Positions 5,202-17,879 of a stretch of 46,822 bases of DNA are shown here, in pieces. The translations under genes were made by a program, and so were the position numbers. Source of the stretch: Defluviicoccus sp. (GTDB taxonomy: Bacteria > Pseudomonadota > Alphaproteobacteria > MPNO01); contig JAPPIT010000212.1 of NCBI GenBank assembly GCA_028820505.1, positions 1-46,822 of the forward strand, written 5' to 3'. A model generated the notes under the pieces. It ran no database searches, was not told the DNA's origin, and saw only the letters and a list, made by a program, of their open reading frames with translations. Every line of letters starts with the position of its first letter. Positions within the stretch are counted from its first letter, which is position 1.

Positions 5202-5633
5202 TCACGGTCGGCGGCGCACGGCGCGGCTCTTCTTCGCATGGGCCAGTTCGAGGAAGCCGGCCTTGATCCGCGCGAACAGTCCCGGCGGGATGAAACCGTA
5301 GCTGAAAGTGTCCGGCCGACCGGGCAGCGGAGACAGCCCGGCATTGGGCCATTCATCGACATTGTGTTCCGACATGATCGCCCAGCTCGGCGTCTCGTCG
5401 AGGCCCAGGGCCTGTCTGACGCGCGCCGGGATTTCGATGCCCACCGTATCGCCTGCGGGCGGTGTATGGGTGATGGGCAGGAGCACCACGTAGCGCGGGC
5501 GCACCGCCGGGTCGGTGGCGGCTACCAGACAGGCCGGGCGGGTCTTGCCCTGATCGCGGCCGGCGGCGGCCTCATGCGTCCAGAGATAGTCGTAGCGGAC
5601 GACCAGGCCCGGCTTCGGATCGGGAAGCGCCAC
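5202..5633 (-). CDS. PemK/MazF-like toxin protein
   Basis: A 143-residue protein read from a GTG start. The N-terminal part has PGLVVRYDYLW followed by GKTRPACLV and YVVLLPIT, the pattern of PemK/MazF-like fold proteins (G-x-V...K-x-RP-x-hV), which in toxins cut mRNA. The C-terminal half is longer than classical MazF. It sits 10 nt after a Phd/YefM-like antitoxin gene on the same strand, i.e. antitoxin first and toxin second. The catalytic arginine of MazF would be R32 in the KTRP motif. Activity is not certain; many chromosomal members of this subfamily are annotated only as hypothetical proteins. Confidence 0.65.
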   Translation of the reverse strand: MALPDPKPGLVVRYDYLWTHEAAAGRDQGKTRPACLVAATDPAVRPRYVVLLPITHTPPAGDTVGIEIPARVRQALGLDETPSWAIMSEHNVDEWPNAGLSPLPGRPDTFSYGFIPPGLFARIKAGFLELAHAKKSRAVRRRP

Positions 5634-5643
5634 CGTTTCGCGG

Positions 5644-5898
5644 TTACGTCAGCAGATCGTCGAGCGGTTCGTGCTCTGCATCCATCTCGGCGCGCTCCAC
5701 GGCGTCGATCACCACGTCGGCGGCGGCGTCCGTGCGATGGCTGCGCTGTGCCGCGGCCCGAAGCCAGTCATATTGCTCCGCGGACATGAGCACGAACTCG
5801 CGGCGCCCATGCCGGGTTATCTCCACCGGCTCGCGCCGCGCTTCGTGCTGGAACCGGCCGAACTTGCGCTGGAACTCGAGGGCGCTCACTGTGGACAT
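5644..5898 (-). CDS. Phd/YefM-type antitoxin
   Basis: An 84-residue protein with the prevent-host-death layout: N-terminal S-A-L-E-F-Q-R-K-F-G-R segment, then PVEITRHGRREFVLMSAEQYDWL, in which the basic turn and V-L-M-S-x-E-x-Y are characteristic. The acidic C-terminus (EMDAEHEPLDDLL) would wrap the toxin. GGGGAGGC lies 6 nt before the ATG. The toxin gene follows after 10 nt. The family normally binds its own promoter; a 10-bp palindrome 36 nt upstream (5934-5943) is a good operator candidate. Phd-type antitoxin with PemK-like toxin is a mixed pairing. Confidence 0.75.
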   Translation of the reverse strand: MSTVSALEFQRKFGRFQHEARREPVEITRHGRREFVLMSAEQYDWLRAAAQRSHRTDAAADVVIDAVERAEMDAEHEPLDDLLT

Positions 5899-6061: not shown

Positions 6062-6598
6062 ATGACGCTGACCGACGGGGTGCCCGAGCTCCGGGACCAT
6101 ATCCGCCAGATCCCGGATTTTCCGAAGCCGGGGATCCTGTTCTACGACATCTCGACGCTGTTGCAGCACGCCGGAGCGTGGCGCAGGACGGTCGACGCGC
6201 TGGCCGAGGCGGTCGCGCGCCATGCGCCGGACCGGCTGATCGGGATCGAGTCGCGGGGCTTCCTCGTGGCCGCGCCGCTCGCGCTGAGGCTCGGGCTCGG
6301 CTTCACCATGGTGCGCAAGAAGGACAAGCTGCCCGGCGCCACCATCGGCCATGAATACGCGCTCGAATACGGCACCGACACGGTCGAGATCCAGGCCGAT
6401 GCGATTACCCCGGGCCAGCGCGTCGTGGTGCTCGACGATCTGCTGGCGACCGGGGGTACGATGAACGCCGCGATCGAGCTCTTGCGCGAGGTCGGCGCGG
6501 ATGTGCGGGGGGCGGCCTGCATCGTCGAGCTCGCCTTCCTCGACGGGCGCGCCCGGCTCGACGTGCCGGTCGACACGCTGGTCGCCTACGACTCCTGA
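6062..6598 (+). CDS. apt: Adenine phosphoribosyltransferase
   Basis: A 178-residue cytoplasmic purine-salvage enzyme converting adenine and PRPP to AMP and pyrophosphate. Family marks: [15 protein letters not shown] at the N-terminus (17-31), [22 protein letters not shown], and the PRPP-binding loop [13 protein letters not shown]. Length matches the usual 170-185. The 3' end overlaps the end of the convergent FAH gene by 13 bp, so the two transcripts are complementary at their ends. A possible promoter is the TATAAT at 5940-5945. Confidence 0.97.
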
Positions 6599-7422
6599 AC
6601 CACCCGGTTGGCGAGCGTGCCGATGCGCTCTATCTCGACCTCGATCGTGTCGCCCGGCCTCATGTAGAGCCTGGGCGTGCGCCCGTGGCCGACGCCGTGC
6701 GGGGTGCCGGTCGAGATGACGTCGCCCGGGGCGAGCGGGGTGAAGCCGGAGACGTAGGCGATCAGCCGCGGGATGCGGAAGATGAAGTCCGCCGTGTTGC
6801 CGTCCTGCACCGTCTCGCCGTTGAGCCGGGTGCGGACGGCGAGCGCGTGGGGGTCGGGGATCTCGTCGGCGGTGACGAGATACGGGCCGAACCCGCTCGT
6901 TCGCGGGAAGTTCTTGCCGGCCGAGACGTTCTCCTCCTGCCAGTCGCGGATCGAGCCGTCGTTGAGGATGGTGTAGCCCGCGACGTGGCCGAGCGCGTCT
7001 TCCTCGGCGATATAGCGCCCGGCGCGACCGATGACGACGGCGAGCTCGCCCTCGAAATCGAAGGCCTCCGACACGCGCGGCCGGACGATGTCGCGGCCGT
7101 GCCCGACCGTCGCGTCGTGGTACTTCAGGAACAGGCTCGGCACCGTCGGCACCTTCCGGTTCATCTCGCGCACATGCACCATGTAGTTGAGACCGATGCA
7201 GATCAGCTTGGCCGGGGGGCCGAGTACCGGCAGGAATGCGATCTCGGACAGCGGCACCCTGGGCGCTTCGTCGACCGCCGCCGCGGCCTCGCCCGGCGCG
7301 CCGGCGCGCAGGGCGTCGACGATGCCGGCATACCCGGTCGCCGCGCCGAGATCGGCGACCGCCTCGCCCGCGAGCGCGCCCCAGCCCGCGGTGCCGCCGC
7401 GCTCGAAGGTCAGCAGCTTCAC
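6586..7422 (-). CDS. Fumarylacetoacetate hydrolase (FAH) family protein
   Basis: A 278-residue protein with a GTG start that overlaps the stop of the upstream UbiD gene (GTGA). Metal-binding acidic residues of the FAH fold are visible: E124 and E126 in [12 protein letters not shown] and D155 in NDGSIRD; GLNY (78-81) and TGTPHGVG are also typical. Members hydrolyse, hydrate or decarboxylate ring-cleavage products such as 2-oxo-hept-3-ene-dioate or acylpyruvates. Coupling to a UbiD decarboxylase suggests a shared aromatic or heteroaromatic acid pathway. The exact substrate is not readable. The 3' end overlaps apt by 13 bp. Confidence 0.88.
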
Positions 7423-9029
7423 GAACCGCTCCGCCGCGCGGCGGGCGGGCTCGCGGCGAAGCGCGAGTCCTTGAGGCAGTGCCGCCCCTCGGCGTCCTGC
7501 CACAGGATTTCGTCGGCGTGCAGCCTGCCGAGCGCGCGGGCGACCGCCTGGAACCCGTCCTCGGCGTAGCGCTCGGCGAGCTCGGCGAAATAGGCCGGCG
7601 CGTCGGCGATGTCGGCGCGGATGCGACCGGCGAGGCCGTCGATATCCGCTTCCGGTGCCGCCGCCGTCCCTGCCCCGTTGGCCGGGCCGAGATAGTCTTC
7701 CAGCCGGACGCTGTCGGCATAGGCATAGGCGATGCGGTGGAAGCGGGCGCGCGGGACGTCGTCGGAAATGGTCGCGTCGATCCCCATCTTGGCCGTCGTC
7801 GGCACCTTGCCGGGCTCGATCCGGAGGCTGGGATCGAGCGGCTTCGAGCGCGCGTTGGAGATTATCAGCACGTCGCGGTCGGCCTGCACCCGGGTCGCCA
7901 CCGCCCATTCGACGTCGACCGGATCGAACACGTCGATATCGTCCTCGACCACGGTGACGTGCTTCATGTCGGCGACCGAGAGCGCGGCGGTGATCGCGTT
8001 CTTGCCGTCGCCCGGGTGCGGCCGGATCGCGATCACCGCGTGCCAGTGGCAGCACCCGCCGGGCGTGATGTTGACCGCCGTGACCTGCACGCCCGCCTCG
8101 TGGCAGACCCGGCGGACGGCGGCCTCGTAGATCGGCCCCGACGGCCAGATATTCTCCCACGGCATGTGGAGCGCGTAGTAGACGGCGTCCCGACGCATCG
8201 CGATCGCGTTGACGCGGACCAGCGGGTTCCAGTGGAGCCCGCCCATCAGCCGGGTGAACTCGCCGAACCGCCCCTCCGGCCGGGTCCAGCCGGTCGGCAG
8301 GATCTCCGCCTCCAGCACGATCTCGGCGTCGGCGATGCACTCGATGTCGACCGTCTTGCAGGGGGTGAGCGCGAGCCCCTCGCCCCGCATCCCGCCGGCG
8401 ATGGCGACCTCGCTGGTGCCGATGGGCGCCTTGTAGGTGGCGGCGATGACCTCGATCGGGTGGGTGCCGATATTGATCGAGATCGGCAGCGGCTCGCCCC
8501 GCGCGAACGCCTTCTCGGCGAAGCGGCGGAGATTGTTGGGGGTGACGATGTCGATGCCGGTGAGCGCGGGCTCCTTGACGAGGTAGCGGTAAACGCCCGC
8601 GTTCAGCCCGTGCTCGCCGTCCGGGTCGCGGGCGAGCGTGACGCCCGCGGTGATCATCGGCCCGCCGTCGAGCACCGAGAACAGCGGGATCGGCAGGCGG
8701 TAGAGGTCGACGTCGCCGCCTTCCAGCAGGGTCTCGCGGGCCGGCCCGGCATTGACCGAGCGCGGCTCGACGGGCCGGTCGAGCCCGGCGCGGACCTTCG
8801 CCTCGATCTCGCCGAAGGAGCACCCCATGGCGACGGCGAGGCGGTCGCGGTGGTTGATCACGCCCGAGACCACCGGCATGTCGTAGCCCGCGACGTCGGT
8901 GAAGAGCAGTGCCTTGTCCGACTGGTCGACCAGCGCCGCGATATGGCGGATATCGACCGGCCGCGCGATCTCGACCAGCTGGTCCGCCGCGCGCAATTCG
9001 CCCAGCAGCTCGCGAAAATTCTCCGCCAT
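7419..9029 (-). CDS. UbiD family decarboxylase (paralogue 1)
   Basis: A 536-residue member of the UbiD/Fdc1 family, which uses prenylated FMN to decarboxylate (or carboxylate) unsaturated or aromatic acids. The expected residues occur at family spacing: N143 and R148 in LNAGVYR, a glutamate metal ligand E207, and the catalytic pair E252/E257 in PEGRFGE. At the position 18 residues after the arginine, where Fdc1 has the metal-ligand histidine, this protein has N166. An Ala/Gly-rich stretch occurs near 460. It is followed by an FAH gene with a 4-bp overlap. No UbiX-type prenyltransferase is in the window. Confidence 0.88.
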   Translation of the reverse strand: MAENFRELLGELRAADQLVEIARPVDIRHIAALVDQSDKALLFTDVAGYDMPVVSGVINHRDRLAVAMGCSFGEIEAKVRAGLDRPVEPRSVNAGPARETLLEGGDVDLYRLPIPLFSVLDGGPMITAGVTLARDPDGEHGLNAGVYRYLVKEPALTGIDIVTPNNLRRFAEKAFARGEPLPISINIGTHPIEVIAATYKAPIGTSEVAIAGGMRGEGLALTPCKTVDIECIADAEIVLEAEILPTGWTRPEGRFGEFTRLMGGLHWNPLVRVNAIAMRRDAVYYALHMPWENIWPSGPIYEAAVRRVCHEAGVQVTAVNITPGGCCHWHAVIAIRPHPGDGKNAITAALSVADMKHVTVVEDDIDVFDPVDVEWAVATRVQADRDVLIISNARSKPLDPSLRIEPGKVPTTAKMGIDATISDDVPRARFHRIAYAYADSVRLEDYLGPANGAGTAAAPEADIDGLAGRIRADIADAPAYFAELAERYAEDGFQAVARALGRLHADEILWQDAEGRHCLKDSRFAASPPAARRSGS

Positions 9030-12676: not shown

Positions 12677-13801
12677 ATGGCCCTATACCAGAACGAAAAG
12701 GACATCGTCGGCGAGGGGTTCCTGGAGGACACCTATCTGCTGTGGTGCGAGCGCGAGGGGCCGCCGATCGCCGAGGAGTTCTGCATCGACCTGTTCGACG
12801 TGGCGACCGCGCCGTGGCCGCGCATGGGGTGCAACGCCGCCTTCGTGCACCTCAAGGGGCGCGGCGACTTCATGTCGGTGTTCCTGCTGGAGCTCCTGCC
12901 GGGCCAGGCGACCGCGCCGCAGCAGCACATGTTCGAGGAGGTGATCTACGTGCTGTCCGGGCGCGGCTCGACCACCATCGAGACCGCCGACGGGCGCACC
13001 CACAGCTTCGAATGGGGGCCGAAGAGCGTGTTCGCGCTGCCGCTCAACTCGAAATACCGGCATTTCAACGGCTCGGGCACGGAATCGGCCAAGCTCGCCT
13101 CGTCCACCTCGGCGCCGCTGATGATGAACTGCTTCCACAACGAGGAATTCATCTTCGACAACGACTTCCGCTTCCCCGAGCGCGAGGGCAAGGAGAGCCA
13201 TTTCTCGGGCGAGGGCGACTTCGTGGCGAAGCGGCCGGGCAAGCACATGTGGGAGACCAACTTCGTCCCCGACGTGAGCAAGTTCGAGCTCCGCGAATGG
13301 CCCGAGCGCGGCGAGGGCTCGTCCAACATCATGTTCATCCTGGCCGAGGGCACGATGCACGCCCATTGCTCGGAGATGCCGGTCGGCACCTACAAGAAGG
13401 CGCACCGCCACGGGCCGGACTTCCACGTCTACTGGGTCACCGGCGAGGGCTATTCGCTGTGCTGGTTCGAGGGCGACGAGGAGATGATGTACTACCCGTG
13501 GAAGCACGGGGTGGTGTTCGCGCCCGCCGACATGATGTTCCACCAGCATTTCAACGCCTCGGCCGGGCCGGCGCGCTACTTCCCGGTCGCCTACGGCTCG
13601 CTGCGCTACCCGCTCACCGAATCCAAGCGCCGGCTGTTCGCGGGCGGCGACGTCGACGTGAAGAAAGGCGGCGACCAGATCGAGTGGGCCGACCAGGACC
13701 CGAAGGTCCACCGCATGTTCCTCGAAGCGCTCGCCCGCAACGGCGTCCGGTCGCGCATGGGCAATCTGATCGACGAGACCCCCTATCTCGCCGCCGAATA
13801 G
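12677..13801 (+). CDS. Bicupin protein associated with an EutA-like ATPase
   Basis: A 374-residue cytoplasmic protein with two cupin domains. The first has QQHMFEEVIYVLSGRG (from 82; H84 and E88 are potential metal ligands) and the second HRHGPDFHVYWVTGEGYS (H243, H245, H251). AGAGAGGA precedes the ATG by five nt. Cupins of this architecture include dioxygenases and decarboxylating or isomerising enzymes. Proteins of this kind have been annotated as ethanolamine ammonia-lyase-activating, mainly because of their link with EutA. Here it is separated by only 3 nt from the EutA-like gene, so the two surely act together, but no lyase gene is present. Confidence 0.8.
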   Translation: MALYQNEKDIVGEGFLEDTYLLWCEREGPPIAEEFCIDLFDVATAPWPRMGCNAAFVHLKGRGDFMSVFLLELLPGQATAPQQHMFEEVIYVLSGRGSTTIETADGRTHSFEWGPKSVFALPLNSKYRHFNGSGTESAKLASSTSAPLMMNCFHNEEFIFDNDFRFPEREGKESHFSGEGDFVAKRPGKHMWETNFVPDVSKFELREWPERGEGSSNIMFILAEGTMHAHCSEMPVGTYKKAHRHGPDFHVYWVTGEGYSLCWFEGDEEMMYYPWKHGVVFAPADMMFHQHFNASAGPARYFPVAYGSLRYPLTESKRRLFAGGDVDVKKGGDQIEWADQDPKVHRMFLEALARNGVRSRMGNLIDETPYLAAE

Positions 13802-13804
13802 AAG

Positions 13805-15361
13805 ATGCACGAGCTCGACTACGCGCATTTCCACCCGGCCTCGGAGCGCGAGGCCGAATTCATCAGGGATACGATCTGGAAGGCCGACAATGTCGAGCTG
13901 ACCACGGTCGGCGTCGACGTGGGCTCGTCGACCTCGCACCTGATGTTCGCCCGCGTCCACCTGCAGCGCCTGTCCGAGGCGCTGTCGAGCCGTTTCGTGG
14001 TCGTCGACCGCGACGTGCTGTGGCGCTCGCCGATCCTGCTTACCCCCTACCGGCCGGACTACACGATCGACGCCGACGCGCTGAAATCGTTCTTCGACGG
14101 CGCGTTCCGCGAGGCCGGGCTGACGCCGGACGACATCGATTCGGGCGCGGTGATCCTCACCGGCGAGGCGCTCAAGCGGGTCAACGCGCGCGCCATCGCC
14201 GACCTGTTCGCCGAGGAGACCGGCAAGTTCGTCTGCGCGTCGGCCGGGCACAATCTCGAATCGGTGATGGCGGCGCACGGCTCGGGCGCGGTCAGGCTGT
14301 CGAAGGCCGAGGACAAGACTTTCCTCAACGTCGACATCGGCGGCGGCACCACCAAGTTCGCGCTGTGCCGGGGGGGCGAGATCGTCTCGACGGCGGCGGT
14401 CGCGGTCGGCGGGCGGCTCATCGCCCTTGACGGCGACGGCGCGCTGGTCCGCATCGAGGGGCCTGCATTGCAGATCGCGGAGGATGCCGGCATTTCGCTC
14501 GTCCCCGGCGCTGCGCTGGAGGCCGGCGACCGGCGGGCGCTGGTGCGGCGCATGGCCGACGTGCTGGTCGGCGCGATCCGCCAGGAAGAGCCGGACGCGC
14601 TCGCCCGCGACCTCCTGGTCACGGCGCCGCTCGACGCCGCGCCCCGGCCCGACGTGATCTCGTTCTCGGGCGGGGTCTCGGAATATATCTACGAGCGCGA
14701 GGGCGACCCGCACGGCGACCTCGGCAAATCGCTCGCCCACCATATCCACCACGCGCTGACCGAGGAGCGCATCCCCTACCCGGTCTACGACCCCGGCCAG
14801 GGCATCCGCGCCACCGTGGTCGGCGCCTCGCAGTTCTCGGTCCAGGTCTCGGGCAACACCATCATGGTGTCCGACGAGGCCGCGCTGCCGCTCCGCAACG
14901 TGCCGGTGGTCCGCATCCGCGCCGACCTCTCGGGCGACATCGAGCCGGCGAGGATCGAGAGCGAGATCGGCGCCGCGCTCGCCCGCAACGACATCGATCC
15001 GGCCGAGACTAACGTGGCGCTCGCCTTCCGCTGGGAGGGGCTGCCGCTGCACCGAAGGCTCCACGACCTCGCCACCGGGCTCTGCGACGGGCTCCGCGGC
15101 GTGCTGGCCGAGAAGCGGCCGATCGTCCTGATGATGGAGGGCGATACCGGGCGCACGCTGGGCCACATCCTCAAGGACGAGTTCGACGTCGGCGTCGACA
15201 TCGTCTCGGTCGACGGGGTGCAGCTCAAGGATCTCGACTATGTCGATATCGGCACGATGATCCACCCGACCGAGGTGGTGCCGCTGATCATCAAGTCGCT
15301 CCTGTTCTCGACGCCCGATGCGAGCGCCGAGGCGTCCGCCGCGTCGCACGTCGAGGCGTGA
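13805..15361 (+). CDS. EutA-like ATPase (ethanolamine ammonia-lyase reactivating factor family)
   Basis: A 518-residue protein of the actin/Hsp70-like ATPase superfamily as in EutA, the factor that exchanges damaged cobalamin from ethanolamine ammonia-lyase. Phosphate 1 loop: GVDVGSSTSH (residues 36-45); phosphate 2 loop: NVDIGGGTTKF (175-185); adenosine motif: SFSGGVSEYIY (286-296). It is somewhat longer than enterobacterial EutA (about 467), with an extra C-terminal domain. It starts 3 nt after the bicupin gene. EutB/EutC and other eut genes, and any cobalamin-dependent enzyme, are absent from the window, so the client protein is unknown. Confidence 0.85.
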   Translation: MHELDYAHFHPASEREAEFIRDTIWKADNVELTTVGVDVGSSTSHLMFARVHLQRLSEALSSRFVVVDRDVLWRSPILLTPYRPDYTIDADALKSFFDGAFREAGLTPDDIDSGAVILTGEALKRVNARAIADLFAEETGKFVCASAGHNLESVMAAHGSGAVRLSKAEDKTFLNVDIGGGTTKFALCRGGEIVSTAAVAVGGRLIALDGDGALVRIEGPALQIAEDAGISLVPGAALEAGDRRALVRRMADVLVGAIRQEEPDALARDLLVTAPLDAAPRPDVISFSGGVSEYIYEREGDPHGDLGKSLAHHIHHALTEERIPYPVYDPGQGIRATVVGASQFSVQVSGNTIMVSDEAALPLRNVPVVRIRADLSGDIEPARIESEIGAALARNDIDPAETNVALAFRWEGLPLHRRLHDLATGLCDGLRGVLAEKRPIVLMMEGDTGRTLGHILKDEFDVGVDIVSVDGVQLKDLDYVDIGTMIHPTEVVPLIIKSLLFSTPDASAEASAASHVEA

Positions 15362-15403
15362 CGGCGCGAATTCACCGTTTCAGCAGTCCGAGAGAGGCCG
15401 ACA

Positions 15404-15583
15404 ATGAGCAAATGGATCGCCCGCGCCCTTGCGCTCGCCGCCGCCGCGGCGCCCGGAACCGCGCTCGCCCATCACGGCGGGCCCGAGGACATCGCCGTCG
15501 GGATCGGCGCCGCGGCGCTCGCGATAGCCGTCGCGGCCGTATTCCTGGGCGTCCGGGCGTATCGGAGGCGGGCGGGCGCGTAG
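15404..15583 (+). CDS. Small secreted/membrane protein, 59 residues
   Basis: The ATG is preceded by GAGAGG at good spacing. The protein begins with a basic-hydrophobic signal-like segment ending ALAHH (about 1-24), followed by a second hydrophobic helix (about 31-50) and a basic end (RAYRRRAGA). After cleavage it would be a tiny one-span protein. It lies 42 nt after the EutA-like gene and may be the third gene of that unit. No family is recognised. Confidence 0.5.
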   Translation: MSKWIARALALAAAAAPGTALAHHGGPEDIAVGIGAAALAIAVAAVFLGVRAYRRRAGA

Positions 15584-15650: not shown

Positions 15651-16847
15651 ATGACGGCGGCCGCACCGGCGCTTCGCCGCGAGGTCGAGGCGGTCGGCCT
15701 GATCAGCGCGGCGCATTTTCTCAGCCATTTCTACCAGCTCGCCCTGCCGCCGCTGTTCATCCTGATCCACGAGGATATCGGGATCGGGTATCTCGCCCTC
15801 GGCTCGGCGGTCGCGGCCTACAACATAGCCACCGCAGTCCTGCAGACGCCGATCGGCTTGCTGGTCGACCGGATCGGCGCGCGGGGCGTGCTGATCGCGG
15901 GCCTCGCGGTCAATGCGGGGGCGATCGCCGCCGTCGGGTTCGCGGAGACCTATTGGGAGATCATGGCGGCGATGATCGTCGCCGGCGCCGGGAACGCGGT
16001 CTTCCATCCGGCGGATTTCGCGCTGCTGTCGTCTTCCGTCGACGACCGGCGCATGGGCCGCGCCTTCAGCGTCCACTCGCTCGCCGGCTCGCTCGGCTTC
16101 GCCGCCGCGCCGGTCAGCCTGCTCTTTCTGGCGGCGGTCTGGGACTGGCGCGCGGCCCTGATCGCGACCGGCGTGGCGGGCGTGGCGCTGGCCTGCCTGC
16201 TCCCCGCCTTCTCGTCCTCGATCCGCGACGACCGGCCGCGCGGGAAGAAGGGCGGCGGCGCCGACTGGACGGTCCTGTTCGACCGGACCATCCTCAGCTT
16301 CTTCGGCTTCTACGCGCTGTCCGCCGCGGCGGGGGCCGGGATCAGCGGCTTCTCGGTCGTCGCCTTCATCGCGATCTACGGCGCGAGCCCGGAGCTCGCG
16401 GGCGGGGTGCTCACCGCGTTCTACCTCCTGACCGGGCTCGGCGTCGCTCTCGGCGGCTATATCGCCGACCGGTGGAACCGCCCCGACGCCGTGCTCGGGA
16501 TCTGCTACGCGGCGGCGGCCTGCGCGCTGGCCGCGGTGGCGACGGGGGCGATGGCGTTCTGGCTGGTCGCCGCCGCGTTCGGCCTCGCGGGCGTGTTCCG
16601 GGGCCTCGTGAACCCGAGCCGCGACGTGCTGCTGAAGCGGCTGACGCCGGCCGGCGCCATCGGGACCGTGTTCGGCTTCGTCACCGCCGGGTTCAATGTC
16701 GGGCTGGGGACGGCGCCGGTGCTCTACGGCTGGATGATGGATCTCGGACGCCCGGAGGCGGTGTTCTGGATCGCCGCCGGGTTCACCGTGCTCACCATCG
16801 GCATGGTCTTCGCCGCGCGCCGTCCGCTCCCGGGCGCCGCCGATTGA
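15651..16847 (+). CDS. MFS transporter
   Basis: A 398-residue inner-membrane protein with about 12 hydrophobic segments. The loop GLLVDRIGARG between helices 2 and 3 is the major-facilitator signature (G-x-x-x-D-R-x-G-x-R), and IADRWNRPD is its counterpart after helix 8. The N-terminal AAHFLSHFYQLALPPLF is typical of a subgroup of alphaproteobacterial MFS proteins. Substrate is not known. The next gene (a binding-protein-like cytosolic protein) starts 51 nt after it on the same strand. Confidence 0.88.
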   Translation: MTAAAPALRREVEAVGLISAAHFLSHFYQLALPPLFILIHEDIGIGYLALGSAVAAYNIATAVLQTPIGLLVDRIGARGVLIAGLAVNAGAIAAVGFAETYWEIMAAMIVAGAGNAVFHPADFALLSSSVDDRRMGRAFSVHSLAGSLGFAAAPVSLLFLAAVWDWRAALIATGVAGVALACLLPAFSSSIRDDRPRGKKGGGADWTVLFDRTILSFFGFYALSAAAGAGISGFSVVAFIAIYGASPELAGGVLTAFYLLTGLGVALGGYIADRWNRPDAVLGICYAAAACALAAVATGAMAFWLVAAAFGLAGVFRGLVNPSRDVLLKRLTPAGAIGTVFGFVTAGFNVGLGTAPVLYGWMMDLGRPEAVFWIAAGFTVLTIGMVFAARRPLPGAAD

Positions 16848-16898: not shown

Positions 16899-17879
16899 AT
16901 GGCCGACCTCGAGCTCTCGATCGCGCTGGAGCGCTACGACCGCCACGTGCCGTTCTTCATGGGTCTGGTCGAGCCGCCGGAGGGGCTGACGCTCAAGCCG
17001 CTCGAAGTGGGCATGGCGCCGCCCAGGCGCGACGGCGTCGACCGCCACCGCCGCTTCCTGGAGGACGGCGAGTTCGACATCGCCGAGACCTCGCTCTCCT
17101 CGCATATCATCGCGACCGCCCGGGGCGCGCCCTTCGTCGGCATCCCGGTGTTCCCGCGCCGACTGTTCTCGCAGAACCACATCTTCGTCAACGCCGGAGC
17201 CGGCATCGAGACGCCGAAGGACCTGATCGGCAAGCGGGTGATCCTGCGCACCTTCCAGACCACGATGTCGGTGCTGGCGCTGGGCGACCTCAAGTTCGAA
17301 TACGGCGTCCCGTGGGACAAAGTGCGCTGGATCGTCGCCGACGACGAGGTCATGCCGCTCGGCGACGAGAAGGGGATCGAGGTCGAGCGCATCGGGCTCG
17401 AAGACGATGTCGGGCGCATGCTGGTCGACGGCGAGGCCGACGCGATGGTCCACCCGCACCCGCCGCCCGCGGTGCTGGAGGCGGGCGACAGGGTGAAGAC
17501 GCTGTTCCCCGACCGGCGCGCGGAATCGATGGCCTATTTCCGCAAGCACGGCTACTACCCGATCATGCACCTGATGGCGGTGCGCAAGCCGCTGATCGAG
17601 GCGCATCCCTGGCTTGCGCGCACGGTCATGGCGCTCTGGGAGGACGCCAAGGCCCAAGCCCGGGAGTTCTACGAGGATCCGGGCTGGTCGACGCTCGCCT
17701 TCGCGCGCAACGAGTTCGAGGACCAGCTCGCCGCGCTCGGCGCCGATCCCTGGCCGTCCGGCATCGCCGCCAACCGCAGGAACCTCGAGCGCTTCATCTC
17801 GTACTCCCACGACCAGCGCCTGATCGACGCCCCGGTGCCGGTCGACAGCCTGTTCCACGAAACGACCTGGGACAGTTAG
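16899..17879 (+). CDS. NMT1/PBP2-like protein, similar to 4,5-dihydroxyphthalate decarboxylase
   Basis: A 326-residue protein with the two-lobed binding-protein fold of NMT1/THI5-like and 4,5-dihydroxyphthalate decarboxylase families. It starts directly with MADLELSIALERYDR and has no signal peptide, so it is cytoplasmic and not a transport receptor. ETPKDLIGKRVILRTFQTT (hinge region) and DGEADAMVHPHPPP are consistent with this family. The decarboxylase Pht5 has about this length. GGGAG precedes the ATG. Function is probably an enzyme on an aromatic acid; the catalytic site cannot be verified by eye. Confidence 0.7.
   Translation: MADLELSIALERYDRHVPFFMGLVEPPEGLTLKPLEVGMAPPRRDGVDRHRRFLEDGEFDIAETSLSSHIIATARGAPFVGIPVFPRRLFSQNHIFVNAGAGIETPKDLIGKRVILRTFQTTMSVLALGDLKFEYGVPWDKVRWIVADDEVMPLGDEKGIEVERIGLEDDVGRMLVDGEADAMVHPHPPPAVLEAGDRVKTLFPDRRAESMAYFRKHGYYPIMHLMAVRKPLIEAHPWLARTVMALWEDAKAQAREFYEDPGWSTLAFARNEFEDQLAALGADPWPSGIAANRRNLERFISYSHDQRLIDAPVPVDSLFHETTWDS

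Follow-up and report, generated by a model that had tools for sequence, protein, structure and literature searches.

The window analysed here is a stretch of 46,822 nucleotides from Defluviicoccus sp. (assembly GCA_028820505.1, contig JAPPIT010000212.1), which is contig 19 of a 5.49 Mb genome that is 100% complete in 228 contigs. It carries two adjacent genes, one for a two-cupin protein (bicupin) and one for an actin-fold ATPase resembling EutA. Both lie on the forward strand and, as an earlier sequence-only reading of this DNA had stated, their open reading frames (ORFs) are separated by 3 nt. That reading had also suggested that the ATPase serves the bicupin as a repair or metal-exchange factor. 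The pair and its parts are listed below.

12677–13801, + strand: bicupin, a gentisate/salicylate 1,2-dioxygenase-like two-cupin protein of 374 residues (ORF, Pfam, AlphaFold model)
13403–13426, + strand: first metal motif, H243-R-H245-x4-H250, in the C-terminal cupin (metal binding predicted from the cupin motif)
13541–13549, + strand: second metal motif, H289-Q-H291, in the C-terminal cupin (family alignment)
13805–15361, + strand: EutA-like actin-fold (ASKHA) ATPase of 518 residues (full-length PF06277 match, identity to Escherichia coli EutA)
13805–13903, + strand: N-terminal tail of the ATPase, 33 residues, MHELDYAHFHPASEREAEF..., with an HxH; not found in Eut-operon EutA (tail comparison)
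13907–13930, + strand: phosphate-1 motif VGVDVGSS, residues 35–42 (alignment of 25 relatives)
14327–14356, + strand: phosphate-2 motif NVDIGGGTTK, residues 175–184 (same alignment)
14663–14683, + strand: adenosine motif FSGGVSE, residues 287–293 (same alignment)

The EutA-like protein matches the EutA family PF06277 at 391 bits (cut-off 27) over positions 2–474 of 475, and E. coli EutA aligns with it over the full length at 33% identity. The curated EutA equivalog threshold is not reached, the best NCBIfam model scoring 327.5 bits against a cut-off of 598. All three ASKHA ATPase motifs are intact, which bears out the earlier statement that the phosphate and adenosine motifs are kept. Among the 25 aligned relatives, V35, G36, D38, G40, and S41 of phosphate-1 are invariant and S42 is nearly so; N175, D177, G180, G181, T182, and K184 of phosphate-2 are invariant; and in the adenosine motif G290, V291, and E293 are invariant while F287, S288, and G289 are nearly so. 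Fold searches returned PPX/GppA, MreB, and a CoA-dehydratase activator (1hux), Pfam gave a weak BcrAD_BadFG match, and a sequence search for solved EutA-family structures found none that is close.

EutA is described as a factor that reactivates ethanolamine ammonia-lyase (Mori 2004, as cited in PMC5821096), and that review agrees with the earlier claim that cobalamin exchange is the only function known for EutA. The lyase genes eutB and eutC, noted before as missing from the window, are absent from the whole genome; this search had been set beforehand as a refutation test, and its outcome favours the client proposal. EutB is likewise absent from 47 of the 50 genomes with a EutA of the bicupin-associated type. 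One of the three EutB-positive genomes, that of a Paenibacillus, is a natural control: a Eut-type EutA lies 80 nt before EutB, and a separate bicupin-type EutA is encoded elsewhere. The window holds a tRNA and no cobalamin riboswitch. No B12 enzyme was found among the recurrent neighbour clusters examined, the rest of the genome not having been searched for other B12 enzymes. Divergent genes of ~1,100 residues beside the EutAs of loci L128, L133, L146, and L149 were considered as B12 mutases and dropped, as their start sequences differ between loci.

Phylogeny separates the two kinds of EutA. A group of 129 EutA-like proteins, that of the window among them, stands apart from seven Eut-type EutAs and one divergent homologue with a support of 0.956. 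The hosts of the EutA-like branch are Alpha-, Beta-, and Gammaproteobacteria, Deltaproteobacteria, Chloroflexi including SAR202, Actinobacteria, Firmicutes, and Binatia. A divergent EutA-family protein (L159, genome G342; 229 bits to PF06277) falls outside both the Eut and the bicupin clades.

To follow the pair beyond the window, EutA relatives were gathered from related and public genomes, genes were called in 121 sequences, and these were searched with profiles of the ATPase and of the bicupin. A bicupin of the same family lies within 700 nt on the same strand at 64 of 87 EutA-like loci (90% non-redundancy), and within 200 nt at 56 of them; at a 70% identity cut the two genes adjoin in 40 of 51 loci. 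The bicupin may come before or after the EutA-like gene. All 22 sampled genomes that lack a bicupin at the EutA-like locus carry bicupins elsewhere, so that EutA homologues without a cupin, the earlier reading's other test, are not the rule.

Co-occurrence leads to the same picture. Among 116 relatives, 21 have both proteins, none has EutA only, one has the bicupin only (a 71% complete genome), and 94 have neither (Fisher p ~3e-22). Across 398 genomes of the phylum, a full-length bicupin occurs only in the genome of the window, which places the pairing far beyond chance; four others have a strong Eut-type EutA and no bicupin. The four bicupin-positive plasmid records all hold a bicupin-type EutA at adjoining coordinates. 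The other 21 EutA-bearing plasmid records have no bicupin, and the two that were opened are EutB-EutC-EutA operons. In the family of Phyllobacterium (394 genomes), each of the five bicupin-positive genomes has an adjoining EutA. The EutA–bicupin pairing is a rule in many bacteria and not a local accident. The literature on EutA with cupins, UbiD, or SAR202 yielded no description of it, subscription papers being outside the coverage.

The EutA-like protein and the bicupin evolve together. For 66 non-redundant pairs, the distances in the EutA and bicupin trees correlate with an r of 0.79, where the maximum in 2,000 permutations is 0.12. Vertical descent of the hosts contributes to this correlation, an effect that is removed by comparison within a locus. 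At loci with two pairs, the cognate correlation is mostly high and turns negative when the partners are swapped; the difference is small for L110 and L115.

The bicupin matches Pfam Cupin_2 weakly (8e-6), and its two-cupin fold is confirmed by structural matches to a confident AlphaFold model (predicted local distance difference test, pLDDT, 86.4; predicted template-modelling score, pTM, 0.87). The best matches are gentisate and salicylate 1,2-dioxygenases, at Z 21 over 265–280 residues (3bu7, 3njz, and others), though the Foldseek and VIA-align rankings are compatible with other cupin families too; the Mn-dependent oxalate decarboxylase, for example, is the best match by Foldseek and reaches Z ~19–20 in structural alignment. 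Identity to the gentisate and salicylate enzymes is low, ~10–14%. We know of no gentisate or salicylate 1,2-dioxygenase that needs an ATPase partner.

The histidine metal site is shared with these dioxygenases but differs from theirs in location. Solved gentisate/salicylate 1,2-dioxygenases carry a three-histidine metal site in the N-terminal cupin. In the bicupin the N-terminal cupin has a partial site (H84 in 79 and H129 in 59 of 112 family members, with no HxH), and the full, conserved site sits in the C-terminal cupin. There, H243 and H245 are each kept in 103 of the 112 members, H250 in 79, H289 in 111, and H291 in all. Some bicupins of a clade in which the cupin bears the tail described below (L046, L050, L051, L054, L066, L072) have no C-terminal HxH and keep the HQH. 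These are possibly non-catalytic partners of a second bicupin encoded 5–7 kb upstream. Between the two bicupin genes of L072 (5612–6985), and of six related loci from order-mates of the window, lies a conserved protein of ~457 residues with no Pfam match.

Most bicupin-type EutAs begin with an additional 30–80 residues rich in His, Asp, and Glu, for example MHDLDFDHEHDDLSD or, in Blastococcus, MTHPHHHHDHDHDHSHGHG; in the window the version is MHELDYAHFHP. The histidine content is 8.8% in the tails and 2.8% in the EutA-like bodies. An HxH occurs in 85 of 127 EutA tails, compared with 35 of 1,307 other proteins from the same loci when their first 50 residues are scanned. The Eut-operon EutAs that were read have no His/Asp-rich tail. 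A clade of 22 pairs, with a support of 1.0 in the EutA and in the bicupin tree, differs: its EutA lacks the tail and the bicupin bears one instead, MPHDxxxxxHWHEP, in 18 of 22; most of the remaining bicupins are cut or wrongly started. Since the tail moves from EutA to the bicupin in this clade, it belongs to the pair. In known nickel chaperones, His-rich tails bind divalent metals.

The surroundings of the pair also include metal transporters. NicO, a Ni/Co transporter confirmed by Pfam, lies within 6 kb of EutA at 21 loci, duplicate contigs included, in Alphaproteobacteria, Betaproteobacteria, and a Firmicute. In a clade where UbiD adjoins EutA it is directly downstream, and a TerC-type metal transporter adjoins the pair in Phyllobacterium. 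Because of the His/Asp-rich tail and the NicO neighbours, the metal part of the client proposal gains independent support.

Other recurrent neighbours are organic-acid transporters, UbiD decarboxylases, Rieske oxygenases, hydrolases, and IclR or LysR regulators, from which it follows that various organic acids are the probable substrates of the bicupins. Their paralogues are expanded in some Chloroflexi and Deltaproteobacteria (L131, L133, L128, L089; genomes G157, G555, G154, G129), where the richest genomes have 24–50 bicupin matches, some of them fragments, against 4–6 EutA-like proteins. Another tally gives 13–50 matches for the richest genomes, and where matches reach up to 50 in one genome the EutA-like proteins number only 2–6. 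Such an excess of bicupins fits a shared helper better than a one-to-one subunit. A SAR202-VII-2 genome is reported to have 25 ring-cleaving dioxygenases (PMC6123686); it gives 24 bicupin matches here, a set that need not overlap with the published one.

With moderate confidence, we favour the reading that the EutA-like protein uses ATP to load or reactivate the metal of the gentisate-dioxygenase-like bicupins. The two genes would form one functional unit, in which the bicupin is a metal-dependent catabolic enzyme of the gentisate/salicylate-dioxygenase type, probably holding its metal on the C-terminal-cupin histidines, and the ATPase maintains it. By analogy with the removal of damaged cobalamin by EutA, the actin-like ATPase cycle would open the client and let a lost or inactive metal leave. 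The His/Asp-rich tail, borne by EutA or in one clade by the bicupin, may hold and hand over a replacement divalent metal, perhaps nickel or cobalt and possibly iron or manganese. We infer that the two proteins touch, that metal is bound, and that action runs from the ATPase to the bicupin; the kind of metal is likewise inferred.

With full-length homology and the same ATPase motifs, the EutA-like protein likely does the same type of job as EutA, an ATP-driven release of a spent cofactor. It differs from EutA in its lack of eutBC and of a microcompartment operon, its bicupin partner, its own clade, a first phosphate motif that reads GSS where EutA has GTT, and the tail. Diol/glycerol dehydratase reactivases and 2-hydroxyacyl-CoA dehydratase activators belong to the same ASKHA superfamily and are activators, not catalysts of a pathway step. 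They differ in having B12 or iron–sulphur enzymes as clients and no His tail. The closest parallel for the tail is found in HypB and similar nickel metallochaperones, whose tails are His-rich, and in CobW-type G3E GTPases (PMC7895991, PMC6344411). Like them, the EutA-like group combines a nucleotide-hydrolysing domain with a His-rich terminal segment and occurs near Ni/Co transporters, but those proteins are P-loop GTPases, whereas this one is an actin-fold ATPase of the EutA family.

Several observations weigh against a metal-loading or reactivation role. The structure model of the EutA-like protein is of moderate quality (pLDDT 76.7, pTM 0.62). The tail in the window carries just three histidines, well below the number in HypB-like tails, and the swap of the tail took place once, at the level of a clade, and counts once. 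The HxH of the C-terminal cupin is lost in eight of the 112 bicupins. NicO accompanies EutA at a minority of loci and is absent from this window. Lastly, in one clade EutA follows UbiD with no adjoining bicupin, so that EutA may have clients other than the bicupin. UbiD lies directly upstream of the EutA-like gene at L037–L043, L086, L093, and L124, and a bicupin then follows at L086 and L093; UbiD possibly acts as a second client or carries out a step in the same pathway. The earlier proposal of the bicupin as a client for repair or metal exchange is partly supported: the pairing, tail, and NicO neighbours speak for it, and it is weakened by this UbiD clade and by the membrane protein downstream, which is a genus-level extra.

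The alternative that survives best, although we consider it unlikely, is that the EutA-like protein and the bicupin are subunits of one ATP-dependent enzyme, in which the actin-fold protein activates the substrate and the bicupin completes the reaction. The ATP-using subunits of acetone-carboxylase-like enzymes are the model for such an arrangement. The tight spacing of 3 nt to ~200 nt on one strand and the matching trees would be expected of two subunits, as would the fidelity of each pair to its own partner in genomes with several pairs. Against it, bicupins outnumber the EutA-like proteins up to roughly tenfold in one genome, and in one clade EutA accompanies UbiD with no bicupin adjoining. 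Moreover, the full-length resemblance is to a reactivase and not to a kinase or carboxylase subunit, and the metal-type tail is left unexplained.

It is less likely still that the bicupin serves the EutA-like protein by storing or sensing metal, with a third enzyme such as UbiD as the real client. The UbiD–EutA tandems in several groups, the UbiD gene near the pair in the window, and the few bicupins with a degraded metal site are compatible with this arrangement. However, UbiD is missing from most loci, each of the 22 genomes checked because its sampled locus had no neighbouring bicupin does carry bicupins, and dozens of bicupin copies beside transporters and catabolic genes are typical of enzymes with different substrates.

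Hitch-hiking of the two genes on mobile catabolic clusters, without any direct link in function, which a patchy distribution and variable neighbours might suggest, is very improbable given the perfect or near-perfect co-occurrence even when the genes are not adjacent, the persistence of the pair while its order varies, the matching trees, and a tail that has moved between partners. Least probable of all is that the EutA-like protein still exchanges cobalamin, in some other B12 enzyme whose gene lies elsewhere, with the bicupin as a neighbour in the same pathway: this reading draws on the homology to EutA and on the capacity of NicO to carry cobalt, the metal of B12, and is opposed by the rarity of EutB, by the lack of a riboswitch in the window, and by neighbour clusters that, where examined, hold no B12 enzyme.

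A metal-loading or repair role for a bicupin has not been described in the EutA family. More tentatively, and short of calling it probable, we propose that this whole EutA branch is an actin-fold, ATP-driven metal-insertion or repair chaperone for a large bicupin family. In bacteria living on recalcitrant organic acids, it would serve as many as dozens of paralogues in a single genome. If true, reactivation of the B12 type would extend to mononuclear metal enzymes, and simple metal enzymes, usually thought to draw their metal from the cellular pool, would have an ATP-driven reactivase. It would also offer a handle on a bicupin family that reaches ~50 copies in single genomes of Chloroflexi and Deltaproteobacteria, groups under discussion for breaking down recalcitrant organic matter. 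The database label “ethanolamine ammonia-lyase reactivating factor EutA” is misleading in bacteria without ethanolamine ammonia-lyase.

The remaining features around the pair are as follows.

15404–15583, + strand: membrane protein of 59 residues with a signal-like start, a genus-level accessory (ORF, sub-threshold DUF202)
15651–16847, + strand: major facilitator superfamily (MFS) transporter, a recurrent neighbour of the bicupin–EutA pair (Pfam, gene context)
16899–17879, + strand: NMT1/SsuA-like solute-binding protein (domain searches, cluster c3)
7419–9029, − strand: UbiD-family decarboxylase (domain searches)
6586–7422, − strand: cluster c13 protein, recurrent near UbiD and judged by eye to be fumarylacetoacetate-hydrolase-like (neighbour clustering)

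The 59-residue membrane protein that the sequence-only reading placed after the pair is a real ORF. Homologues at 70–88% identity occur in three congeners, outside of which there is no convincing orthologue, and the protein was rejected as part of a conserved module. The MFS transporter keeps its position in congeners and at L079, L081, and L082, and the NMT1/SsuA-like protein is among the commonest neighbours of EutA-like genes (46 members of cluster c3 at 44 loci). The UbiD gene of the window and the gene beside it (6586–9029) are on the opposite strand, ~5 kb from the pair. Further along the minus strand, at 5202–5889, two small adjoining ORFs resemble a toxin–antitoxin pair, judged by the starts of their sequences only.

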